Positions 3,150 through 64,000 of a DNA stretch of 64,000 nucleotides are shown one piece after another; positions within the stretch are counted from its first letter, which is position 1, and each line of letters opens with the position of its first letter. A model generated the notes under the pieces. It was not told the DNA's origin. It was given only the letters and a program-made list of their open reading frames with translations, and ran no database searches. The translations under genes were made by a program, and so were the position numbers. Origin of the DNA: Lophium mytilinum (taxonomy: Eukaryota; Ascomycota; Dothideomycetes; Mytilinidiales; Mytilinidiaceae); contig MU004185.1 in assembly GCA_010093605.1 (NCBI GenBank), positions 1,075,334 through 1,139,333 on the forward strand. Reading direction: 5' to 3'.

Positions 3150-4796
3150 CTAAGTCATCATCTTCGCCATCGCCTCCGACAGCACCCCCAAATGCCTCTC
3201 CCCCCTAAACACCCCCTTCGGCATCTTCTCCTTCCCCAACCCCATCAACTCCGCCACGGCCATCTGCGCACCCCTCACACTATACTCCACCGTAAACACC
3301 GTATCCTCCTCAATCTCCACAAACTGGCCCACACACCCCAAATTCGTGCTCTCCTCCGGCACCACCTTCGGCCGATCCCCGGCCTCCCGTGTCAAAAACT
3401 GGCTCGTGATATACGGCATCACACACGGCTTGACAATCGCCTGCTCCAAGATCGGATGCAGCGGGAAATGCAGATGCCCAAGTAGCTCTGTGAGGATCTC
3501 GAGCCCGGTACACTCGCTCATCTTCTTAGGGACGTAGTTGCCGAGCGCGGTGGGGAAGAGGCCGTAACCCCACAGCACGAAGGTGTCGCGTGGCTGGTCG
3601 AGGAAGTGGGGCTGGTGCGGGACGACGATGGAGAGCAGCCAGTTGCTGTCTTTGAACGTCATGAGCGCGCCGGTGCCGGGCTCGTTGTGCGTGAGGCCGG
3701 TGATGCGGGTGAGGAGTTCGGGGTTGGAGAGGGTGATGGTGAAGGATTCCCAGAGGGATTCGTTGATGCGCGTGCTGAAGACGGAGGGGTTGCCAAGGGA
3801 GGGGTTCTTTGCGGCGAGTTTTGTCCAGAGCTCCCAGGAGCCGTCTTGGAGCTCGTCTTCGAGGATGGGGTCGGGGGCGGCGTTGTTGGTGCCAATGGAG
3901 GCGTTGGAGGTCATGCTGCCGAGGGTCACGATGACGATGTCGGCGGGGTCGAGCTGTGCGGTCATGGGCGTGCCGTTGGAGAGCATGTGGATTTCGTCGA
4001 CGGTGGTGGGGATGCCGGTGATGAAGTCGATGTCGGTGACCTTTGTGTTGAAGCGGAAGTCAACACCTTGCGTTTTTAGATACTTGATGATAGGCTTGAT
4101 AATGCTATCGTATTGGTTGTACGGCGTTCGATCTACACCAGCGAGGGTGTTGATGCGTGGGAATTCGTGTAAGAAGCGGTGGAGGTAGCGGCGGAACTCG
4201 ACGGCGCTGTGCCAGGGCTGGAAGGCGAACATGGTTGCCCACATGTACCAGAACTTTGTGGTGAAGAAGGCTTGTGGGAAGCACTCGTCGATGCGTTTCT
4301 TGCCTAGGCTAGCCTCGCTTTCAAGCGTGATTCTGATCATGTCGAGGCGCTCGGTGGGACTTAGCCCCATTCTCCGGGTGTCAACGATTTCGACCTCGTC
4401 TTTACCACTAGCGAGGAGGCGGGCCTTGGAGTTGGTTTTGTTCTCTGGCACGGCGTTGAAGTCTTTGATTTCTTGGAGTAATGTCTTCTCTGGGTTCGTG
4501 AGAGAGGGGATGCGACTCAATAGCTCGTATGTGCAGAGATAGCTGAAGTTGAGCATTCGCCCACCACGGAGGACATAGCCCTCCTTGGCATTGCCGGATC
4601 CGTCCATTGATCCACCAAAGACGGGGAGTGACTCGAGGATGTGGATATTTTTAGGAGGCACCTTGGCATCCTGGATCAAATGAACGGCAGCAGCTAGCGA
4701 TCCAATGCCACCGCCGACGAGGTATGCCTGAGTCTCCTCTGGGTTACGATGGGATTGCTCCCCAGCCTGGCGACCCTTTTTGAAGAAGTGCGGCAT
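3150..4796 (-). CDS. Oleate hydratase (MCRA family), FAD-dependent
   Basis: Intronless 548-residue protein of the oleate hydratase / myosin-cross-reactive antigen family, which adds water to the cis-9 double bond of unsaturated fatty acids to give 10-hydroxy acids and needs FAD as a structural cofactor. Seen in the sequence: the dinucleotide-binding motif GGGIGS at residues 28-33, GGSMDG at 61-66, RGGR at 77-80, and the family blocks FWYMWATMFAFQPWHSAVE and YNQYDSIIKPII. The position after RGGR holds Met81, where the bacterial enzymes I remember have the catalytic Glu of RGGREM. No signal peptide is visible, so a cytosolic or membrane-peripheral location is likely. Bacterial members are usually a little longer. 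The family is best known from bacteria and its presence in fungi is patchy, so an old transfer is possible. The start is the first in-frame ATG. Confidence 0.93.
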   Translation of the reverse strand: MPHFFKKGRQAGEQSHRNPEETQAYLVGGGIGSLAAAVHLIQDAKVPPKNIHILESLPVFGGSMDGSGNAKEGYVLRGGRMLNFSYLCTYELLSRIPSLTNPEKTLLQEIKDFNAVPENKTNSKARLLASGKDEVEIVDTRRMGLSPTERLDMIRITLESEASLGKKRIDECFPQAFFTTKFWYMWATMFAFQPWHSAVEFRRYLHRFLHEFPRINTLAGVDRTPYNQYDSIIKPIIKYLKTQGVDFRFNTKVTDIDFITGIPTTVDEIHMLSNGTPMTAQLDPADIVIVTLGSMTSNASIGTNNAAPDPILEDELQDGSWELWTKLAAKNPSLGNPSVFSTRINESLWESFTITLSNPELLTRITGLTHNEPGTGALMTFKDSNWLLSIVVPHQPHFLDQPRDTFVLWGYGLFPTALGNYVPKKMSECTGLEILTELLGHLHFPLHPILEQAIVKPCVMPYITSQFLTREAGDRPKVVPEESTNLGCVGQFVEIEEDTVFTVEYSVRGAQMAVAELMGLGKEKMPKGVFRGERHLGVLSEAMAKMMT

Positions 4797-10650: not shown

Positions 10651-13317
10651 TCACACCAACAAGAACCTGACTATCTCGTCTTCCGCCCATGGTGGCTTTG
10701 TCCAACCAGGAACTGACTCCTGAGAGTATAGTATCGTCCCCTCCTCATTCGTCCTCGCAAATCCCACTCTCTTGTAACATGGCACACCCCCGCGGTTCCC
10801 GGCCAGCGAAATCAAGAGAGAAAAACGCTGTTCTTTGGAATTTAGATGCCCTGACATAATCTTCGAAATTGGAAACACGAAGACTTCGTCGCAGATTGCT
10901 GTCGTGTCGAACCCGAATGCCCGAAGACTTTGCAGCGCGCTCATGTTATCAATCTGCCAGCGGAAGAGTTTCCCTCTTACGTCGATGAAGCCATCGGACA
11001 CACTGCCGAAAGGGTCGTTGCTAGACGCAGTCGTTTCGCAGCTAAGAATGGTCATAAGAGGCTCCACATCCCTCCTCCGAAAAAGTCTGAAGTCGTCGGT
11101 AACAATCTGGCCATCCACCGATGCCCATGACCATGTCGGGGCTGTCCACTGTAAGCGTAAATCGTGAACGAGGAGGGCCAGGAAACCGTGCCTCTATATG
11201 GAGTCGGGCGGGGGAGGGGAGGTCTGGTGCGATACCACGACAGCCCGCGTATCAAGCGCCCCTTCCAGAGACCAGCAGCATACTCATCGTCCAGTATACG
11301 ATGTATGACGCGAGCGATACCGGAGATGGCGATCAGTTTGTCGGATTGCTTTGTTAGTGAGCATCCGGTGTATGCATGTATAGATTTATTCCAGCGCCTC
11401 ATCCCTTCCCCGTTTTCATCACTTCTTACCGGATATTTCCGTTCTGACTTAAGGACAACATCATCCGAAGACCGCGGCCTAAGCTTGCTAGATTCGTAGG
11501 CTCCGCGTATCCTTACTGGGCATGATACCCGCTCTCTGCACTCCCAAAACATAGGCGAACCGAAATGAATGGTCCGAGGGCTTAGGACACGCTCTTGGAG
11601 CACCCACCCACGGGAATTGAGAGGCGAGCACTCCTCAAACTCTTTCCATCGGTCTTGGAAGCAGATGAATTTCTGCGTTCCCCGGCTAGTCCGAAGGTTG
11701 ATCCAAAAAGGTCTCCAGTCAAAAGGGTCATCTTGCTCACTGAGCTTTTGTCCAAAAAGTCCTGGGCCGGAAACATTGAACTCCGACGCCGCTATGTTGA
11801 GGGCTGCGTTTTGGTATACTTTGTCCATCGTGGAAGCCTCCAGTTCCCAATCCTCATCAGAGTCTTGGATTATCTTAAGGTGGCAATAAAGTTAGCAAAT
11901 CTTTCTGAACCAGAGTGAGAAAACCGGTATTGATGACAGGTTATGCTGCGTGAGATACTCCTTTGGGGAATTCCAAGACACCACTGTCCAATTTGCCAGC
12001 TCAACACTACTATTCGGGGGAGCCTGACTGCTGAGCAGGCAATCAGTCAAGAGGCAGTCTAATCTACACTGCTTGAAGTCTAACATCGCCCTCGAGTCTT
12101 CAGACCCCTGCGGGGATACTCTAAGCAGTAGCGTACCAGTGGTTGTCTCGGAATACTCCTGGAGTAGGTTCAAACAGACATATTGCTAGGAATTTTCTTA
12201 TCTGTGTTGGGGGCTTACGTACGCACAACGAATCGATCCATATGTATTCGTATTGTAGGTCTCTTGAAACTGAGATGGAATCTCTGAAAGTTTGAGGTAG
12301 GTCATCGAAGTTGATGCCCCCCTTGAATTGTTCCAGATTCGACAAAGTCAAGTTGAGGAACTTTGCATCGCCCCATCGGTGGCTTAATGTGATGTATCGT
12401 AATTGTAACGTCCGTGGAATATCAGCGTGGCCTACTAACCTAATTTGCGGATGCTCATTTGACCCGACATATATTAGACGGGTAGGAATGGAATGCTCAA
12501 AGGGGTCTGGTTGGCAGTTCAGATGGGAATGCAGGCAAGCTGTGATGCAATCGTTTAGCCAACTCCAGATCTCAACCCCTGAAGTTGGACAGTCGAAATT
12601 GTCTGACCCTGTGTATAGGTCAAGAAAAATAACCATTAACACTGATTTACATCTTTCGTGTGTGATGTACGTACCTCTGACCCGATGCATATCAATATAT
12701 TCCACCCAGGCATTATTGCCGACGCCAGACACTATTTGAAGCTCTTCCGTTTCGGTTACTTCTAAACTTACTTGAAGTAGGTGTAACAAGTCTAGCGGAG
12801 TTTTGTGATGTTTCAGGACTGCAGATCGGAAAAACCCGCAGAGTCTACAGGAATCTGCCACCTTCAAGACTTCCTCTACTGTGCGAAAAGGAAATCTTAT
12901 TTTGCCATTAGGGCTAGAGGAAGCAGTGAGTCTTCCTAAAATCGATGTCTTGTTCTCCTCTCCTGCGTCACTATCTTGATCGCCACAATCAAAGACGAAA
13001 CTGTCGCGACGCCTCCACTCGTAGTCGTCCCAGTTGTCAAGCCCCGCGTCTTTGCGTCTTTGAGTTAATCTTCTCAATTTGTTAGCTTCCACAAGACAGT
13101 ATTGAGAGGGTCTGTCATACGCGTCCTGGGAAAAGTGTCGCATCCATTCGCTTCGAAAGGCTGCCCACTTAGCCTCGAACCCAGATTTGTCAAATTCAAA
13201 ATAGCACAGAACGCTTGGCGCTTTTTTCTCGGCGTTCCTCACCAAATTTTGGATGAGAATGGCAGGGAGCACTACCTTATTAAATGTCAACCTTTCAACA
13301 TCCCTTAATAATAACAA
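10651..13317 (-). CDS. HET-domain (heterokaryon incompatibility) protein, 5' end unclear
   Basis: Four exons are inferred: 13317-12675, 12608-12223, 11873-11192 and 11141-10651, about 733 codons. HET proteins mediate non-self recognition on hyphal fusion. The core HET motif reads YITLSHRWGD, then DLPQTFRDSI, then YIWIDSLC joined across the second intron to IIQDSDEDW, and later NSRGWVLQERVLSPRTIHF. After the last intron comes PTWSWASVDG, a usual block after the HET core. The second intron is long (349 nt). The third (11191-11142) keeps frame only with a GC donor. The open frame reaches 13317 without an ATG; the first in-frame Met is about residue 59 (WMRHFSQD), and an in-frame stop lies just upstream. 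The 5' end coincides with one arm of an inverted duplication, so the gene may have lost its true start or use an unseen upstream exon. Confidence 0.8.
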
Positions 13318-27869: not shown

Positions 27870-29531
27870 CTTGAATGTCGGATACCGTTGGCGTCGGGGT
27901 GCTGGTGGTGATGTCAAAGTCGTCGCTGAGAAGCTGGAGGTGAGGTTGTGGGAAAACGCAAATTGTTCGCTTGTGCGCTCGGGCCGCAGGGCGACCGCAG
28001 CTAGCCCTTACAAAAAAGCTGTCGCTCAACCTCACGCCTTCTCCACTACATCTCACATCGACAACATCAACTCGATGCAGCACGTCCGCGATGTAGCTCC
28101 ACCTACAGAGCCTCGCTGACAGAGAGCCTGGATGCCCACGTGTGCGTATCCTCATCACGAAAGAGGCCTCGACATGCTGGGCAAAGGGCTGATTCAGATC
28201 TGGTATGTTAGTTCCGCCGTTCACACTTTCCACCACCCTCCTTCAAATGATGATCTTTTCCAATACATACAATATTTCTGGTACCTCTTGATTTAGTGGG
28301 CCTGCGGGTTCGCGATGATCGCAACGGACTTCTGATAACTTAATGACTTCTTGTTACATTCGAAATCTCAATCCTGGATTGTGCTAACAAGTTTGAAGAT
28401 AGGAATAGTAATCTTAGACATAGCATCCTTCGAACCCATTGCTCAAACAAAGCTAGTGGCTTGCTTGGGAACGCATCACTAGTTGGGCGACCTTCATAGC
28501 TCGAGAAGTCCACACTTCATGCCCTCACGATATTCCACACCCCATTAGTCGGCTGTGGGCTTAGGTGAGCAAGCATGGACTCCCTCATACATGGGTGGTT
28601 CCCATGTATGTAGATGTGGTGTTTTAGTTGAGGTGGGTTTAGGCGGCGCGAAATCGGCGTTCATGAAAGCATAACAATGCCACCCAGACATCCCTTAAGG
28701 ATACTGTTAGAACTGTGATATCATAATGGACCTATAGACTGTACATTGGCCAAACCATATTAGTACATGAGCTCTCCGATGTGACCGTTTTGTCTTTATC
28801 AACACGTGAGTATTTGAAACCCCATGCGCGGAGCTTACACCGCAATTCCATTCAAGGTTTGCCAGATCTCTCTCAGTCATATCATATCTAAAAGTCTGAT
28901 GCTGTGCAGGTGGCATTTTCTGCGGGAGCGTGACTTTTTCACGTGCTCTTACAATCACTGCTGGGCATCAGGTCCCTGCGTCCCCCTTCTATTCTCTTTC
29001 CGAAATGCAGAAACAAGGTTTTGAGCTTAAACAGAATATTGAAACATCTTCCTGTCATCTGGTCCGAATCACTGTTACCTGCGTGGACCTTGCTCGCAAA
29101 CTTGGCAGGCGCAGTGCTGAAAACCCAAGTCACAACACCCGATCGTAGTTCCCTTATGACCGCAGGCGCCCCTTTGATGTTTCCAATTTACGCTCTGGTT
29201 TGATTAATAGGTGCCCATGTCTGAGGAATACTCGTTGTTCACACGTCAGTGTGCTGAAATGAGGCCGTTTTGGCATGTCAAATTCCCGAGGGTTCAAATC
29301 GTGGGCTCGCTCAAACGCATCTGCCAGCAGGCTTGAGTACACGGGGGAGCTTCTTCACGAACAAGCGAGCCACGCAGTGCCTTATTTACTACAACAAGCG
29401 TCATGAACCTCCTCCGCCTCCACCTCTCCACCAACCTTCCTCGTTCTCAACCCCCATTTGCCCTAGATCTGCATACCCAATACACGATCACAGCTCTTAC
29501 TTTATAGCATTTACTGCTCAGCACCGCTAAC
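27870..29531. other. Intergenic (about 1.65 kb), with a perfect hairpin
   Basis: Divergent promoter region between uS15 (minus) and the TOS1-like gene (plus). The first 200 bp are C/T- and purine-rich, as expected of a ribosomal-protein promoter and leader. A perfect 10-bp palindrome with a 5-nt loop lies at 28586-28610. No gene is seen. Confidence 0.5.
28586..28610. other. Short perfect hairpin
   Basis: CATACATGGG and CCCATGTATG flank the loop TGGTT. The palindrome is isolated and no T-run follows it. It may be a protein-binding site or chance. Confidence 0.5.
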
Positions 29532-39640: not shown

Positions 39641-41604
39641 CGCTACTGCTTGGAGTGGTTCTACATTGCCCGAGGTGAAGAGTTGCCGTCTCGTTGTATT
39701 TTTCATAAATTCTACATCCAAGAGGTTTACGGGGTTGAGAGACATTTGACTAACAAACATAAAAGGTTTAGGATATTTCCTAGCGGCTTACTTATATGCG
39801 AAAAAGGAACTACGTTAGGTATATGTACCGTGTGCCTTTATATGCCCTTCGTGTCTGTTAAATATCCTCTTACACGGTTAGATCCACAACTCCTTCCAAT
39901 AAAAGAGACCACACTAGGTGCAGGCAGCGTATCCTTATATGTGCCCTCTACGTCTATCCAACATTCTACTACACGGTTGGATCCGTAACTTCTTGCAATA
40001 AAAGGGACTACTTTAGGTGCAGGTAGCGTACCCCTTAGCGTGCCTTCCGCGTCTATCAAATTTTCTCTTACGCGGTTAGATCCGTAACTTCTTGCAATAA
40101 AAGGGACTAGGCTGGGTGCACGTTACGTACCCCTTTGCGTAGCCCTATCATCCTTCAGTTTCCCCCTTACGCGGTTAGATTCGTGACTTCTTGCAATAAG
40201 GAATTACATTGGGAATACGTAGCGTACCCCTAGGCGTGCCCTCCGCGTCTACCGAAAATTATCATACGCGGTTAAATCCGTGATTTCTTCCATTAAAAGG
40301 CACTACGCTGGGGTTACGAAGCGTACGAATGAAATAATACTCAATAGGTGTTGAAAACGTGGCTTTGATGTGGAGAGGGATGTCTCTCACGTGCTTTTAA
40401 AACTTCGAGGGTATAAATACCTTTCGAGGGACGTCGCGGCAGGACAAGGAAGTGGGTTCGGGCTCATCAAAAACGGTGAGAACTCCAGTTATGGGAACTT
40501 GGAGTTCAACTACTCAGCGTTTATTTGTTATGGGAAGGGTGGAGGGCGGACTGGTGCAAAAGGGTACACCCAGGGATACGATGGAGAGGGAGTATCCTCG
40601 TCGTTCAGACTTGCAGACTGAAATCATGGCATATTAACGATGGGCTATAAGTTCTGTTAGTGCTACGGGAGGTTGCCAGTCGATGTATGTTGCATTCAGT
40701 ATCAGATTTTGAAGAGGACTATCAGTGCTTGTGTATAATCATGCTCATCTCCATCATACTACAAGATGCCTACTTCGCCATCTCTATGCAGCCGCGACAT
40801 CCTCCACCATGTGTACTTTGCTGCGCCAGGGTTGAACCGTCCCCTCTCCTTCTCCATTTGTTCCTGGGAGCTTGTGGTTTTGGCCCAAGACAAGCGCAAA
40901 TAACAGGGCCATACACGATCGTAATGGCAGAGTACCTTCTCCCTTTCCCATCCCTTGAAGGAAAACAAACCGGAGGGCGGCGAAGAAGTTTCATACTTTG
41001 CTTTCTGAAGAAATTGACGCCGAGACCGATTCACGTGCATCCACGGAACTAAGTGCTTGGACGCTTTGAGGTAGCTATCGATGTGGGCAACTGAGTCGTT
41101 TTGTCGTTGACTCGAAGAAGGCAGGAGTTTCTTGTTTGTATCGATGATCTTGGTCAAGCAGGCTCAGAGTTGCTCGTCGTCCCCGTTGTTTTCGGCTAAC
41201 TCGTCGAAGACAGTAGCCTTCTTGGAGCTAGAGTCGGGTGTGTGCGCTATTGTTTCTATGGAGGTAGTCGTGTATCTGAAGAATGATAGAGACGATCTAG
41301 AAAGGTCACTCTTTACGTGCAAAAGGTTGGTCTACATGTAACGTAGTGTACTTAGAGGCCGAGGTGTGGGTAATAGATGAAGGCGAGTAAAATAGCACCC
41401 TGTTCCTGGTGCGTGAGATCGAATAGTGTCGTGCTGTAGGCTTCTTGCTTGGGTAGCTCTCGTAGATGTTCGTTGTGCATGGAGAGTAGAAGGAAGTATG
41501 TCGAGAGTAAATGAGCAAATGATCCATTCCAAGGTAAGAGAGATCGAGAGACGGTTGCTGGTAAATTCGATGCGATGATCCTCCGCCGCACTCAACTCAG
41601 CGGC
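39641..41604. other. Gene-free stretch containing the 99-bp repeat
   Basis: After the zinc-finger remnant comes A/T-rich DNA, the tandem repeat at 39800-40335 and then about 1.2 kb with only chance frames. Confidence 0.5.
39800..40335. repeat. Tandem repeat, five units of 99 bp
   Basis: The word CGGTTAGATCC or a close variant starts at 39875, 39974, 40073, 40172 and 40269, spacings of 99, 99, 99 and 97 bp. Each unit also has a TTGCAATAAAAGG word and a GCGTACCCC(T) word. The first and last units have diverged most. On the minus strand two to three units are open in one frame and give a 33-residue repeat with LPAPxVVxFI and GSNRV motifs. The remaining units contain stops in that frame. Confidence 0.85.
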
Positions 41605-47228: not shown

Positions 47229-47705
47229 GTATATGTACGGGTCAGAAAACCTTCACCGCCCCCATTGCTGCCAAGCAGGGCTGAGTGCGTGGTAACTTCA
47301 AATCCCGCGCGTCCTCTCTTTTGTCGTATTCCTAACGACATCCGCTATTGCGGATTATGAAACAACCCTACTGCCTTAGGGGGCCCCTTGGGCGCCGCAG
47401 ACGTTGTGTATACTCAAAGGGCATTTCCGAACTTTTCTCTAACCTCCAGTTGCAACGCGTGCTGATGACACGCGCTTACTAGGCATTCCTCGTTGAAGAG
47501 CAATAATTGCAATGCTCTATCCCCAGCACGACAGAGTCTAACAAGATTACCCAGACCTTTCGGTCAAGGTGATGAACTCGTTGGCTCTGTCAGTGTAACG
47601 CGCGTGCGGCCCACTAGCGAGGACGTTCTGATCAATCTTGGCGTGCGCCGAGCGTCGAGAATGTCATGGGATGACAAGGTCGGCGGACGCGTGCCGTGTG
47701 AGGAG
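47229..47705. repeat. Direct duplication, copy 1
   Basis: Two parts match copy 2: 47229-47325 (around GGCTGAGTGCGTGGTAACTT) and about 47620-47700 (around TTGGCGTGCGCCGAGCGTCG and GGTCGGCGGACGCGTGCCGT). The middle part differs and is longer here. Confidence 0.8.
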
Positions 47706-47950
47706 TACAAGAGAGAATTTGTTTTTAAGAGAAGGGAATGAGAGAAATCGTCTCTAGTGCCAGATATTGACTTTGATGAGCTGACGCGAAATTAATCCAA
47801 ATGCTTGTGTAATTAGAGTAGATACGAAAAGAAAACAAGCCTATGTTTGAGCTTAATAGAACGGAGTCGCTGTCTCGTATAGAGCAAGGAACTGAGCAGA
47901 CTGCTCTAGAGTAGCTATTCCAGAATAAGACGAGACGGACACTCCGTCGG

Positions 47951-59500: not shown

Positions 59501-61496
59501 AGGAGGTAGCAAGCCCAATAGCCGCAATAAAGTCGCCATCTTCCATGAGAGCCAGCAAGCGGTCAGCCCAGTTGGACAAAGTGCCAATGGAGATATCGTT
59601 GAATCCCAGAATGAACAGTCGCCCTTTGTAGGCCCGGAAGCTCATGTGAAATGCGTCTGCTACAACACCGTGCATTGAGTCATCTTGTTCGTCGAGTTGT
59701 TCGATCACTGGTTGAAGCTGCTTCGAGAACAAATCTTCATGGTATATGTGTTTCTGCAACAGATCGAATGAGTCTGTGATTCGTAACGATGTGTCTTCCA
59801 ATATGATCAGACGCTGGCTGATGGTCAAAACCCCGAGCACGGATCTACTCAACCACTGAACAGCTACAATAGCTTCGTCGCCCCTCCAGCGACTCCGTGG
59901 TTTAAACGTAAGCTCTGGTGGCTTCTCTTTGTCCGGTACCGTTATCGCGTCGACATCCAGAATTGTCAAGATGTTTGACCAGCAGTAGACGAGTTTTGTT
60001 TTCGAGACCTGCTGCTGGGAGTTGCCGGAGGCGTTCTTTAGTTTCACCGCGGGAAACCAAGCCAAGCACCCACTTAGCGTGCTATGAGGTGCGATTTCCT
60101 TTGGTCTTGAGGCTTTATGTTGCGTTTGAGCAAGGGGCGTAGTAGACACAATGACTAGCAGGTACGGCGTAAGAAGCGCAGTCAAGCCCATGCTGTCAGT
60201 AGGCTGCTCCACGTTTCCCAGTGGCAGAGGCGCAAATGCTAGGACTGAACTAGGTTTCCGGGGTCGCTCGGTTGACTTCGCTGTTAAAGGGTATCTCCCC
60301 AGAATCCGAGTGATCTTCACAGTCCTTGCGACTGCTCCGAGACCTCTCGTGGCGAGATGAGAAAATGCCATTCCACCGTCATCTGCGGAGACAAGGGCAG
60401 TATGTCTTGTGCCCAAGAAGCCCACATGAAGAATCGCTGTGTCAGCGACATGTCCATCAGACCGCCGATCATCTAGCGCGCCTCTTTCGATCGGAGGAAT
60501 ATGAAGAAACGGCTTGGCCGGCCTTGCAAGCTCCCACGTGAAAATGTTTCCAGTACCATGTCCTCCAGCAACGGTTGAATGATCAGCAGAAATAGCCAAA
60601 GAAGTCACTGGCCCGCATTCAATAGCTGTATTCGTCGTTAACGCAATTCATATCGAACATTTAGAGCTGTGGTTACCTTTGGTACCTGGTCCTATGATGG
60701 ATTTGAGCACTTGATTATAGTCGAAAACCAGAATGAAGCCTTTTGACGTGCCGACCACAATCGACGCAGCAACTGCTAGGCATGTGGGACGGCCAAAATT
60801 GCGCTTCCCAACCTCTGAGAATATTTGGCCTGTTATCTTCTTCAACTTGGTCCACCGTACCACTTCCCATGGAGCTTGCGGAGTATCTGCTTCACTCTGC
60901 TGATACAAGAGAGTGCTTGCTACAGAGGACTGCCGCGACCGCGTATTTAGGAAGGCGGGAGATACCACTCTTGGTGAGTGTAGCGGGGATGGTGTTAATC
61001 GAGAGGAAAAGCGTCGTTCGAACGGCTGCAGAGCGGCGGGATGGTGCATGCGAGAGAAGGAGGCATGAGAGGCTGGTACACTCGGGGAGGATAGTATTGA
61101 GCCCTGAAGCAATTAGATGTGTCCATGATACCCCATCCAAGAGCTTACTTGAATCGAGGGCGTATCATCTGGTATTGATGCTGATTCCGGACTCCCAGGG
61201 ACCTGGGCTCGTTGCCGGGTGGGTAATCCAGAGCCTACTTCTGTGCCATCATCTGTACCCTGCTCTTCATGATCCCTAGCAGTAGGTATTGCAAAATAAC
61301 CTCCATTGGCACCAGTTCGTAGCTCGTCCCGTACATGCTGCTGCTCTTCCTCGATAACCTCCTTCGTCAGGACACCACCATCGTTTGACTCCTCTTGCTC
61401 CACGAAGTCCCCAAATGGCTCCTCCACTGTTGCACCGCTTGTCCCCCGCTCTTCCTTGTCAGCGGTGACATCGCTCTCTCCCGAATCTGAGCTCAT
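56577..61496 (-). CDS. VPS8: Vacuolar protein sorting protein 8 (CORVET subunit)
   Basis: Three exons: 61496-61149, 61103-60677 and 60625-56577, giving about 1607 residues. Vps8 is the Rab5-binding subunit of the CORVET tether on early endosomes. The acidic N-terminus (SSDSGESDVTADKEE) is followed by a beta-propeller: CLAVAASIVVGTSKGFILVF, ECGPVTSLAISADHSTVAGG, HGTGNIFTWELARP, FLGTRHTALVSADDGGMAF. The alpha-helical middle includes FSKQLQPVIEQLDEQ, CRLNTLTMDIDQVTTLCQQY and SYLFSGKALDWPKGSG. The C-terminal RING-type finger has CEGC, CRHLWHRRC and CPIC. Between CEGC and CRHLWH lies an Arg/Glu-rich insert of about 80 residues, much longer than the usual RING loop. Upstream lies the divergent GPALPP gene. 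Confidence 0.95.
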
Positions 61497-61931
61497 CGGT
61501 CTTGTTTGCTGCGGCGCATGTCTTCAATCGCGCGTTGAAGGTTGAGCTTGAAGGGGGCGGGATATTGATTAAACCCAGAGACCTGTAAGCATCGGTGAAG
61601 TTCCCCGTGTATCTGAAGCTATTCGGTGGGTCCGTGTACTGTTTGTTGCGGCGATGCGGTGGTGCCTGGGAGGAGTTCAAGTACTCTACAACGATTGCGG
61701 CAGACGGGGTCCAGGATGTAATTTCGAAACTAGAGCAATCCTCGGTCTCAAGTCTCCTGGAATTAGAGGTTCAGGGCAGTAGGAACGTAGGCGAGGCAGG
61801 GAGTGCAGTTGGTGGTGGTGTATCATTCAAGCTTCGAGGCGCTGTTGTCGATCCGGCAAACACCGCCTAGCTTCGATGCTCATCTTCTACTCCTCAAACA
61901 TCACCACAACATAATCCACAAAGTCTCCAAA
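61497..61931. promoter_or_regulatory. Shared divergent promoter of VPS8 and the GPALPP gene
   Basis: 435 bp separate the two start codons, so both promoters must overlap here. No TATA box is obvious. Confidence 0.5.
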
Positions 61932-62828
61932 ATGCCCTCAATAGGCCCCCAGATACCTCCTCACCTGCTCGCCAAGCGGAAGCGCGACTCCGAAGACGAC
62001 GAATCTCCCAAACCCTCACCAAACCGCTCGAGCAGCCCCGACAGCAGCGACAAGCGACGCAAAGTCCTGGGACCCGCACTACCACCAGCTCCTTTAGATG
62101 AACGACCGCCAGGGAATCCATCGGCCTCAGATTCAGACGACAGTAGCAGCGACGACGATGACTTTGGTCCCGCGCCGCCTCCAGCCAACGGCGCAAATGT
62201 ATGCAGCTCCAGCACTCTCAGCCTTTGGAGTGGCTCCCACTAATTATCTACGTAGACATCAAGCTATGAACCCTCTGAATCTAAATCAGCCTTCGACACC
62301 GACCCCGCATATGCGCCCGCCGCACCCTCCTCCAAACCCCGCCGCGACGAATGGATGATGGTGCCCCCCAAAGCCGACGACCTCGCCGCGCGCATGGATC
62401 CGAGTAAGCAGCGCGCACGCAAATTCAACAGCGGTAAAGGGGCACGCGCGCCCGGAGCTGCAGACGGCGACAACGCTATCTGGACAGAGACGCCGGAGCA
62501 GAAGCGCAAGCGGCTCGCAGATGAAGTTATGGGCGTTGCGCCGGCAGGGAAGGCGAATGTGTCGGCGCGGCAGCAGGCTAGGGATCGAGAGGCGGAGGAG
62601 ACGGCGAGGAGGGTGAGGGAGCACGATGAGCGGCATCGGGGGAAAAGTCTGTTTGAGCGGCATCAGGCTAGTACCACTAAGGAGAAGGAGGATGATCCGA
62701 GTAAGAGGGCGTTTGATAGGGAAAAAGATGTCGCGGCGGGAGTAAGGCTAGGGACGAAGGAGAAGAAGGAGATGCTGAGCAAGGCGGCAGATTTTGGATC
62801 GAGGTTCGAGAGGGGCAGTTTTCTGTAG
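61932..62828 (+). CDS. GPALPP-motif / DUF3752 protein
   Basis: Two exons: 61932-62198 and 62256-62828, giving 279 residues. The GPALPP motif occurs as GPALPPAPLDERP and, in a variant form, as GPAPPPANG, after a start that itself reads MPSIGPQIPPHLLAKRKRDS. The middle is acidic (SDSDDSSSDDDDFGPAP). After the intron comes the DUF3752 part: RRDEWMMVPPKADDLAARMD, RKFNSGKGAR, IWTETPEQKRKRLADEVMG and RGKSLFERHQAS, ending FGSRFERGSFL. The family is conserved from fungi to animals, nuclear by prediction, with no established activity. The high charge suggests disorder. Transcribed away from VPS8. Confidence 0.88.
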
Positions 62829-63557
62829 TGGCTTGTGAAAGTGGGAGGAGTGTCTTAAGGGAACTTGGTGATGCTTGGCACGCTGCACACGGCACCTATC
62901 GTAAAACTAGCCCTAGAATCGAACTCTGAACATGTATATGAAGTTCGCACTGAGCCTTACTATACACTGTATGCATGTGAAAAATTTGCAGTATGGCCTC
63001 ATTCAATAGATGCATTTTTCGAATACTCGGTGGTTCACCGCAGGAACTACACGTGGAAACCCTCAGCTTTAAAATATCATGGAATCTACAAGTTGCTAGT
63101 GGCTATCTCAGTTGAATTGAAAACATGCCATGAGTAAAGACGATCAACGCCAAAGCGATTTAAAATGTTGGTAGCGATAGGTACTATACGTACGAGTGGA
63201 GTTGCGGAGCCCACTCCAGCACGAAATAAATTGGATTAAAGAAAGATTCTCCCCCCGACTCGATTCTGAGTTACTAGAATTGAGGAGTGACCTCTCCTGA
63301 ACAGCATGATGGCTCGTTATGTGGTTGCAAACGACGAATACCAAGCCATCCTTTGAAGTGTTGTTTCAGTGGGGCCGATTGTCCACCCTCTGGACCTATC
63401 AATTGGCCGAGACGCTTTGACACACACACCCATGGTACCCTTGTAATTTCACTCACTCCCGAAGGTCGGCTGACTGTTCTCTAGGGTTGGTTTTCGCTCT
63501 AGTTTGTCATGGGCTATATACCAACTATTTTTGCCAACTCTTCATCAATCACCAACA
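62829..63557. other. Intergenic, no gene seen
   Basis: 729 bp between the GPALPP gene and the tRNA. Moderately A/T-rich, short chance frames only. Confidence 0.5.
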
Positions 63558-63688
63558 GGCGTGGTGGCGGAGTGGTTATCGCGCAAGCCTAGAAAGCTTG
63601 TTCCTTCGGGAGCGCAGGAAAGCGATTTGATTCCTAGCTTCAATACCATCAACTAACAGTGTTATAGGTTCGAGTCCTGCCCACGTCG
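63558..63688 (+). tRNA. tRNA-Ser(AGA) with a 50-nt insertion in the T arm
   Basis: The acceptor strand GGCGTGG (63558-63564) pairs with CCACGTC (63681-63687), discriminator G. The D arm reads GCG...CGC with GAGTGGTTAT in the loop. The anticodon arm is CAAGC-CTAGAAA-GCTTG, anticodon AGA. No intron is present at the canonical 37/38 position. The long variable arm TTCCTTCGGGA marks a class II serine tRNA. The T-stem 5' strand GCAGG (63614-63618) and the T loop plus 3' strand TTCGAGTCCTGC (63669-63680) are both intact but separated by 50 nt, 63619-63668. The Pol III B-box GGTTCGAGTCC (63667-63677) stays whole because the insertion ends in GG. The A-box word TGGCGGAGTGG is present. This is either a rare ectopic intron, or an inactive gene copy. 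Confidence 0.85.
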
Positions 63689-63696
63689 AAATTATC

Positions 63697-63701
63697 TTTT
63701 T
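63697..63701 (+). terminator. Pol III terminator of the tRNA gene
   Basis: A run of five T begins 9 bases after the discriminator base, the normal place for RNA polymerase III termination. Confidence 0.7.
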
Positions 63702-64000
63702 GATTTTCCACATATCTTTTTGCTCCCACGTTGCTCCGGACGGCCAGGACATCAGCAATACGTTTGAACAGTGACTGATAAGCGTGTGCATTCTTTTTGC
63801 CCTTGTGCAATGTGATAGCCGGGGTAATGTGACAACTTTTGCTCGGCTAGCAGCATATGCGCCTATCATCAGTGAATGACATCTACGTGACATCCGGGCA
63901 GGCGAACACGGCATGTCGATAATGTGATGTGATCTTTATGCAGGAAGATGACGGAAGTAACGATGTTCAACCTATAAATCAAGTTCTATGTTACCACAAG
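63702..64000. other. Right edge, no gene seen
   Basis: About 300 bp after the tRNA. No supported frame. A gene entering from the right cannot be excluded. Confidence 0.4.

Follow-up and report, generated by a model that had tools for sequence, protein, structure and literature searches.

Interruption of a tRNA-Ser(AGA) gene of the ascomycete Lophium mytilinum by 50 nucleotides in the T arm

The region from position 63558 to position 63688 on the forward strand of the analyzed DNA is a tRNA-Ser(AGA) gene that carries a 50-nt interruption at position 53/54, in the T arm. All positions refer to the window, that is, the whole stretch of 64,000 nucleotides from contig MU004185.1 of the L. mytilinum genome assembly. 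The interruption probably arose when a small insertion recently put one of several tRNA-Ser(AGA) gene copies out of function, and this explanation is the one that makes the fewest assumptions. The features of the interrupted gene are summarized in Table 1.

Table 1. Positions of the tRNA-Ser(AGA) gene parts, the insert and associated motifs in the window
Feature	Position	Strand	Remark
5' part of tRNA-Ser(AGA): acceptor 5' strand, D arm, anticodon arm, variable arm, T-stem 5' strand	63558..63618	+	
A box TGGCGGAGTGG	63565..63575	+	consensus match
T-stem 5' strand GCAGG	63614-63618	+	
AGG, first copy, bounding the insert	63616..63618	+	
50-nt insert at 53/54, register 0	63619..63668	+	36% G+C
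ACTAAC, fungal branch-point-like motif	63652..63657	+	consensus RCTRAY (available part of PMC5832005)
AGG, second copy, bounding the insert	63666..63668	+	restores the B box start
B box GGTTCGAGTCC	63667..63677	+	
3' part of tRNA-Ser(AGA): T loop TTCGAGT, T-stem CCTGC, acceptor 3' strand, discriminator G	63669..63688	+	
T5 run, RNA polymerase III terminator-like	63697..63701	+	

The Rfam tRNA model matched the interrupted gene from 63558 to 63688 with a score of 41.3 bits (gathering score 29), and this was the sole tRNA match in the 64-kb window at E-values up to 1. The acceptor stem comprises 7/7 pairs including one G-U pair, the D stem three Watson-Crick pairs and one G-U pair, and the anticodon and T stems five pairs each; the anticodon loop reads CTAGAAA, without extra bases at position 37/38. 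When the flanks were joined without the insert, ARAGORN recognized a normal tRNA-Ser(aga) of 81 nt. The gene is missing from the ARAGORN listing of the window as it stands, and the 41-nt anticodon intron that the program assigned to the interrupted gene, with introns of 0-200 nt allowed, was dismissed as a false call. A search of both strands for an A box, a B box and a 7-bp acceptor stem so spaced gave a single hit in the window and none in 40 Markov-1 windows.

The A box TGGCGGAGTGG was assigned by its match to the A-box consensus TRGYNNANNGG. The distance from the start of the A box to that of the B box is 102 nt, and 52 nt without the insert. Transcription of the interrupted gene by RNA polymerase III is plausible, since the A box, the B box and the terminator are intact and the insert is free of any run of four T residues. 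These findings bear out the original prediction, which had described, with correct coordinates, an interrupted tRNA-Ser(AGA) gene with an intact cloverleaf, A box, B box and T5 run and an empty canonical intron site: the Rfam score, the paired stems, the located motifs and the ARAGORN call on the joined flanks all agree with it. The further claim that promoter and terminator favour transcription was likewise supported, in that the intact A box, B box and T5 run suggest transcription, while saying nothing about removal of the insert. An AGG repeat around the insert had been claimed as well; it is present, and the boundaries were refined to four registers.

Because AGG is present on both sides of the insert, four junctions are equivalent, and the registers 63616-63665, 63617-63666, 63618-63667 and 63619-63668 all give the same mature tRNA. 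The register 63618-63667 gives an insert that opens with GA and has AG as its last two bases. The sequence ATAGG at the end of the insert can pair at four of five positions, one of them a G-U pair, with the T-stem 3' strand CCTGC, and in the Rfam alignment the additional nucleotides precede the T stem. As both of these differ from an interruption inside the T arm, the latter placement rests on the perfect pairing GCAGG:CCTGC. A 19-nt inverted repeat with 79% complementarity connects positions 63447-63465 in the upstream flank with positions 63603-63621 in the variable arm and the start of the insert; it may be due to chance.

The course of events that we prefer would start with a small insertion that broke a single member of a set of tRNA-Ser(AGA) gene copies in a filamentous ascomycete. 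The insertion may consist of 47 bp plus the 3-bp AGG repeat, or of 50 bp of filler DNA whose joining used a 3-nt microhomology; a 3-bp repeat could stem from a small duplication of the target site as well as from microhomology-based end joining. It would be young, since the remainder of the gene is free of decay. RNA polymerase III would probably still transcribe the broken gene. Because nothing was found that would remove the insert, the RNA should retain the disrupted T arm and would be degraded or inactive, and the remaining gene copies would supply the tRNA-Ser(AGA). We thus infer the existence of other copies, the retention of the insert, its age and the mechanism of insertion. According to the available part of PMC4090602, short insertions in the D and T arms of eukaryotic tRNA genes mostly affect a single gene among many synonymous ones and are presumed to mark pseudogenes, and the perfect cloverleaf around a single interruption argues for a broken copy in the present case. 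A flawless remainder of the gene would equally be explained by selection, and the intron-like combination of RCTAAC and TAG/G (the slash marks the junction here and below) in an AT-rich insert with a CAG/G context is a further point against a broken copy.

That no source of the inserted sequence was found also counts against a broken copy. A second copy of the insert is absent from it, the longest exact match of 11 nt being reached by 51 of 100 shuffled sequences; within about 2 kb around the locus the longest match is 10 nt, which 10% of 2000 shuffled sequences reach. With regard to a DNA transposon or its footprint, the 3-bp AGG repeat may be a target-site duplication, and terminal inverted repeats are lacking in the outer 10 bases (1 to 4 of the 10 pair over the four registers). 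Local alignment of the insert to the tRNA as a direct or inverted copy scored 7 and 6, respectively, and 31% and 74% of 1000 shuffled sequences were as good. A search of positions 60000-64000 for Rfam families at E-values up to 1 returned only the tRNA itself, and the 20-base core of the insert had no matches in viral contigs.

An intron of the U2 type at an AG/G site with a GA donor, either a rare GA-AG intron that is still removed or a decayed GT-AG intron, is an unlikely explanation of the insert. In the corresponding register 63618-63667 the sequence reads CAG/GAAAGC...ACTAAC-N5-TATAG/G, in which the branch A (63656) precedes the last base by 11 nt and the TAG closes at 63667. The donor consensus is CAG/GTAAGT, which CAG/GAAAGC matches at 7/9 positions, and the AGG repeat is the expected trace of an intron with a G start and an AG end at an AG/G site. 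Against this reading, a GT or GC donor occurs in none of the four registers (the dinucleotides are AA, GA, GG and AG), and the donor base +6 is mismatched too. Spliceosomal introns of ascomycete rDNA have canonical GT donors. In fungi, GT-AG introns make up 98.7%, and all classes besides GT-AG, GC-AG and AT-AC together account for 0.257%, as given in the part of PMC7072748 that was available. Fungal introns contain RCTRAY at a branch-to-acceptor distance of 6-36 nt (PMC5832005, available part), and the insert likewise contains RCTRAY within 6-36 nt of a YAG. The motif ACTAACAG near the 3' end of the insert carries more weight than the original prediction had given it, as it forms with TAG/G a good fungal pair of branch point and acceptor, though with a GA donor. 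For comparison, every AG/G followed by another AG/G 42-62 nt further on was collected from both strands of the window, the locus itself being excluded. Among the resulting 954 spans, RCTAAC is placed as in introns in two, at least three of five donor matches after the first G occur in 89, the branch motif and such a donor coincide in none, and 15 have a G+C content of 36% or less. The span at 39725, one of the two with RCTAAC, combines GT, CTAAC and TAG and is perhaps a genuine intron. In 351 AT-rich 50-mers ending in AGG the branch motif occurs more often, at 2.0%. The motif test is moreover post hoc, having been chosen after the motif was noticed, and the consensus pattern GTNNGN...RCTRAY...YAG is present 58 times in the whole window, which is not above the Markov-1 expectation of 55.1 (sd 8.9), so that such motifs are weak evidence. 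The post hoc nature of the test and the lack of enrichment keep the spliceosomal explanation at the low probability stated above. The insert has 50 nt; introns of the window were predicted by pattern only, within preset limits of 42-120 nt or 45-90 nt, and the 13 donors predicted from the open frames of the window, which are partly mutual alternatives, were not used as evidence. Support from published systems comes from the fungal U3 and U6 RNA genes, which are often interrupted by introns, with RCTRAC found in 129 of 138 U3 introns (PMC5832005), and from the GA-AG introns of two animals, which show a conserved upstream AG and a downstream A like the insert (PMC7072748); both sources are cited from the parts available. 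As a possible entry route, an excised intron may have been reverse-spliced into the pre-tRNA; for the group I introns of fungal rDNA, such a route has been suggested (PMC1299323, available part). Nuclear tRNA genes with spliceosomal introns are unreported in the partly accessible literature consulted. The AGG repeat, the ACTAAC...TAG/G end, the AG/GAAAG start, the low G+C content and the flawless exons agree with removal by the spliceosome, and the GA donor opposes it. That a U2 intron at CAG/G is actually removed as a GA-AG intron before maturation, with tRNA splicing that depends on the spliceosome and is independent of the endonuclease, is highly improbable, with about half the probability given to the spliceosomal explanation as a whole.

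The insert might instead stay in the RNA and be tolerated or used, either with an enlarged variable region and a new T stem AUAGG:CCUGC or in a gene that serves only as a TFIIIC binding site. This reading agrees with the pairing of ATAGG with CCTGC at four of five positions (one G-U), with the Rfam alignment of the gene and with the intact A box, B box and terminator; in the free ensemble, however, the alternative T stem reaches a probability of 0.03 or less per pair in comparison with about 0.13 for the original one, and we know of no parallel for a variable region that is 50 nt longer, which makes retention of a functional insert quite unlikely. It is very unlikely that the insert is an ectopic tRNA intron at 53/54 that the tRNA-splicing endonuclease excises, with the fungal ligase Trl1 sealing the exons. 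Such an intron has precedents in the T-arm intron of the tRNA-Ile(UAU) of Cyanidioschyzon merolae, which is located at the same position 53/54 (PMC9602550), and in archaea, where 53/54 is among the intron sites (PMC4090602); bulge-helix-bulge substrates can be processed by the eukaryotic endonuclease (PMC4090602), all according to the available parts of these sources. Removal of the insert yields a perfect tRNA, as judged by ARAGORN on the joined flanks. No bulge-helix-bulge was detected at any of the four junctions, however: in its strict form, a 4-bp central helix with flanking bulges tested in the four registers, the central helix does not exceed 2/4 pairs; three or four pairs are attained by 505 of 2000 shuffled inserts. 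In the constrained fold the 5' side of the insert pairs with the 3' exon, and the loops follow in the order opposite to that of the bulge-helix-bulge motif, whose loop order served for comparison. This fold (-36.9) is no more stable than those of the controls, since equal or greater stability was reached by 75% of the shuffled inserts (n = 300) and by 90% of the genomic 50-mers (n = 300, taken from the 351 AT-rich ones ending in AGG); the respective values for the free folds are 80% and 92%. In the free ensemble the probability of the original T stem is only about 0.13 per pair. The stem that forms between insert and T loop in the constrained fold (UUUGA with UCGAG) was rejected as a meaningful structure because the controls are equally or more stable. 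The eukaryotic endonuclease is believed to locate the splice sites by their distance from the tRNA body, and it does not need the anticodon loop to pair with the intron (PMC4090602, available part); neither property favours a T-arm site. In the absence of a bulge-helix-bulge and with ordinary folding, a tRNA-endonuclease intron is unsupported. The original prediction had offered two options, an ectopic tRNA intron or an insertion that silenced one gene copy, of which the former, taken as an endonuclease-cut intron, finds no support here and the latter fits best. Finally, an error of sequencing or assembly in the source genome is hardly to be expected: the locus is known from one sequence and nothing speaks directly for an artefact, the locus is ordinary DNA, and no direct repeat of at least 12 nt that could mislead an assembler is present in the region 63300-64000.

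With the presumed pseudogenes carrying D- or T-arm insertions (PMC4090602) the present case shares the nuclear tRNA gene, the single short insertion within the T arm and the otherwise intact remainder; the present insert differs in having branch-point-like features, and the described cases are single copies among synonymous genes. The ectopic introns of C. merolae (PMC9602550) likewise interrupt a eukaryotic tRNA gene in the T arm at 53/54, and removal of the insert would give a perfect tRNA as in C. merolae and in nucleomorphs (PMC9602550, PMC4090602). In contrast to these introns, the present case lacks a bulge-helix-bulge, comes from an ascomycete and not from an alga, and is known from DNA alone. 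The spliceosomal introns of fungal U3 and U6 genes (PMC5832005) resemble it as short inserts with RCTRAC and YAG in genes of small structured RNAs; at the time of that paper, frequent interruption by an intron was known for no small structured RNA besides U3 and U6. The U3 introns average 92 nt and are GT-AG in 136 cases, given as 98.54%, whereas the insert measures 50 nt and starts with GA, and a tRNA as host of a spliceosomal intron, unlike U3 and U6, is undescribed in the literature consulted. Short inserts in a structured RNA gene are also represented by the spliceosomal introns of ascomycete rDNA (Cubero 2000, Bhattacharya 2000; via PMC11889510), whose host, in contrast, is rRNA. The GA-AG introns of the copepod Eurytemora affinis and the tunicate Oikopleura dioica (PMC7072748) have the same AG/GAA donor context and AG acceptor, but they are numerous animal introns in annotated protein genes and are supported in part by RNA reads. 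All these comparisons refer to the parts of the cited sources that were accessible. Among the papers listed on tRNA interruptions, covered by titles and the openings of abstracts and including few subscription journals, no T-arm intron and no spliceosomal intron was described for a fungal nuclear tRNA.

Relatives of the gene were searched for in other collections, none of which is built from eukaryotes. A loose pattern of the eukaryotic tRNA-Ser(AGA) matched nine stretches in genome contigs and none in viral contigs. Two of the nine stretches (L004, positions 459-540, and L007, positions 3793-3874) are uninterrupted tRNA-Ser(AGA) genes, which we take to be of the yeast type; the contigs are labelled Corallococcus and Verrucomicrobiaceae, respectively, and the genes probably represent eukaryotic contamination of those assemblies. 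In a third stretch (L002) a tRNA match of 37.9 bits was obtained at the pattern site, covering model positions 7-64 of 71, and the other six stretches contained no tRNA at the Rfam gathering score within the stretch examined. Plasmids and phages gave no match to positions 63500-63760. A gapped T-arm pattern detected 107 stretches in viral contigs, which are pattern matches only and from which no inference was drawn.

As a broken gene copy, the interruption of this tRNA-Ser(AGA) gene is an ordinary event. It points to a blind spot of detection, as interrupted fungal tRNA genes may go uncounted, since ARAGORN missed or miscalled the present gene and the search of tRNAscan-SE 2.0 for non-canonical introns is described for the archaeal mode (PMC8450103, available part). 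Were the insert spliced, it would be, to our knowledge, the first T-arm intron recognized in a fungal nuclear tRNA. Were it removed by the spliceosome, two splicing systems that are thought to be separate would be joined, and reverse splicing into structured RNAs would become testable in a small gene.

Other elements of the window were recorded alongside the tRNA gene. Seven open frames were scanned, including single ones with a HET domain, a Zn(2)-Cys(6) cluster, Pex13 and Hsp70, and one with a fungal cellulose-binding domain together with an LPMO. Together with a C/D snoRNA of an Aspergillus family, these frames make the surroundings resemble the DNA of a filamentous ascomycete. Adjoining open frames on the reverse strand between 10651 and 13344 may be pieces of one HET-domain gene; the frame 11052-11891 on the same strand, the sole one scanned among them, scores for HET. 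A piece of 18S rRNA (RF01960) was detected on the reverse strand with 119.8 bits and a match from 47453 to 47900, of which only the part from 47453 to about 47605 is aligned with high confidence (model positions about 1490-1643); the remainder of the rRNA gene is absent from the window, and the isolated piece is probably a fragment of nuclear rDNA. In addition, a C/D box snoRNA of the family Afu_264 (RF01505), known from Aspergillus fumigatus, is located at 28243-28337 on the forward strand and scores 50.2 bits.
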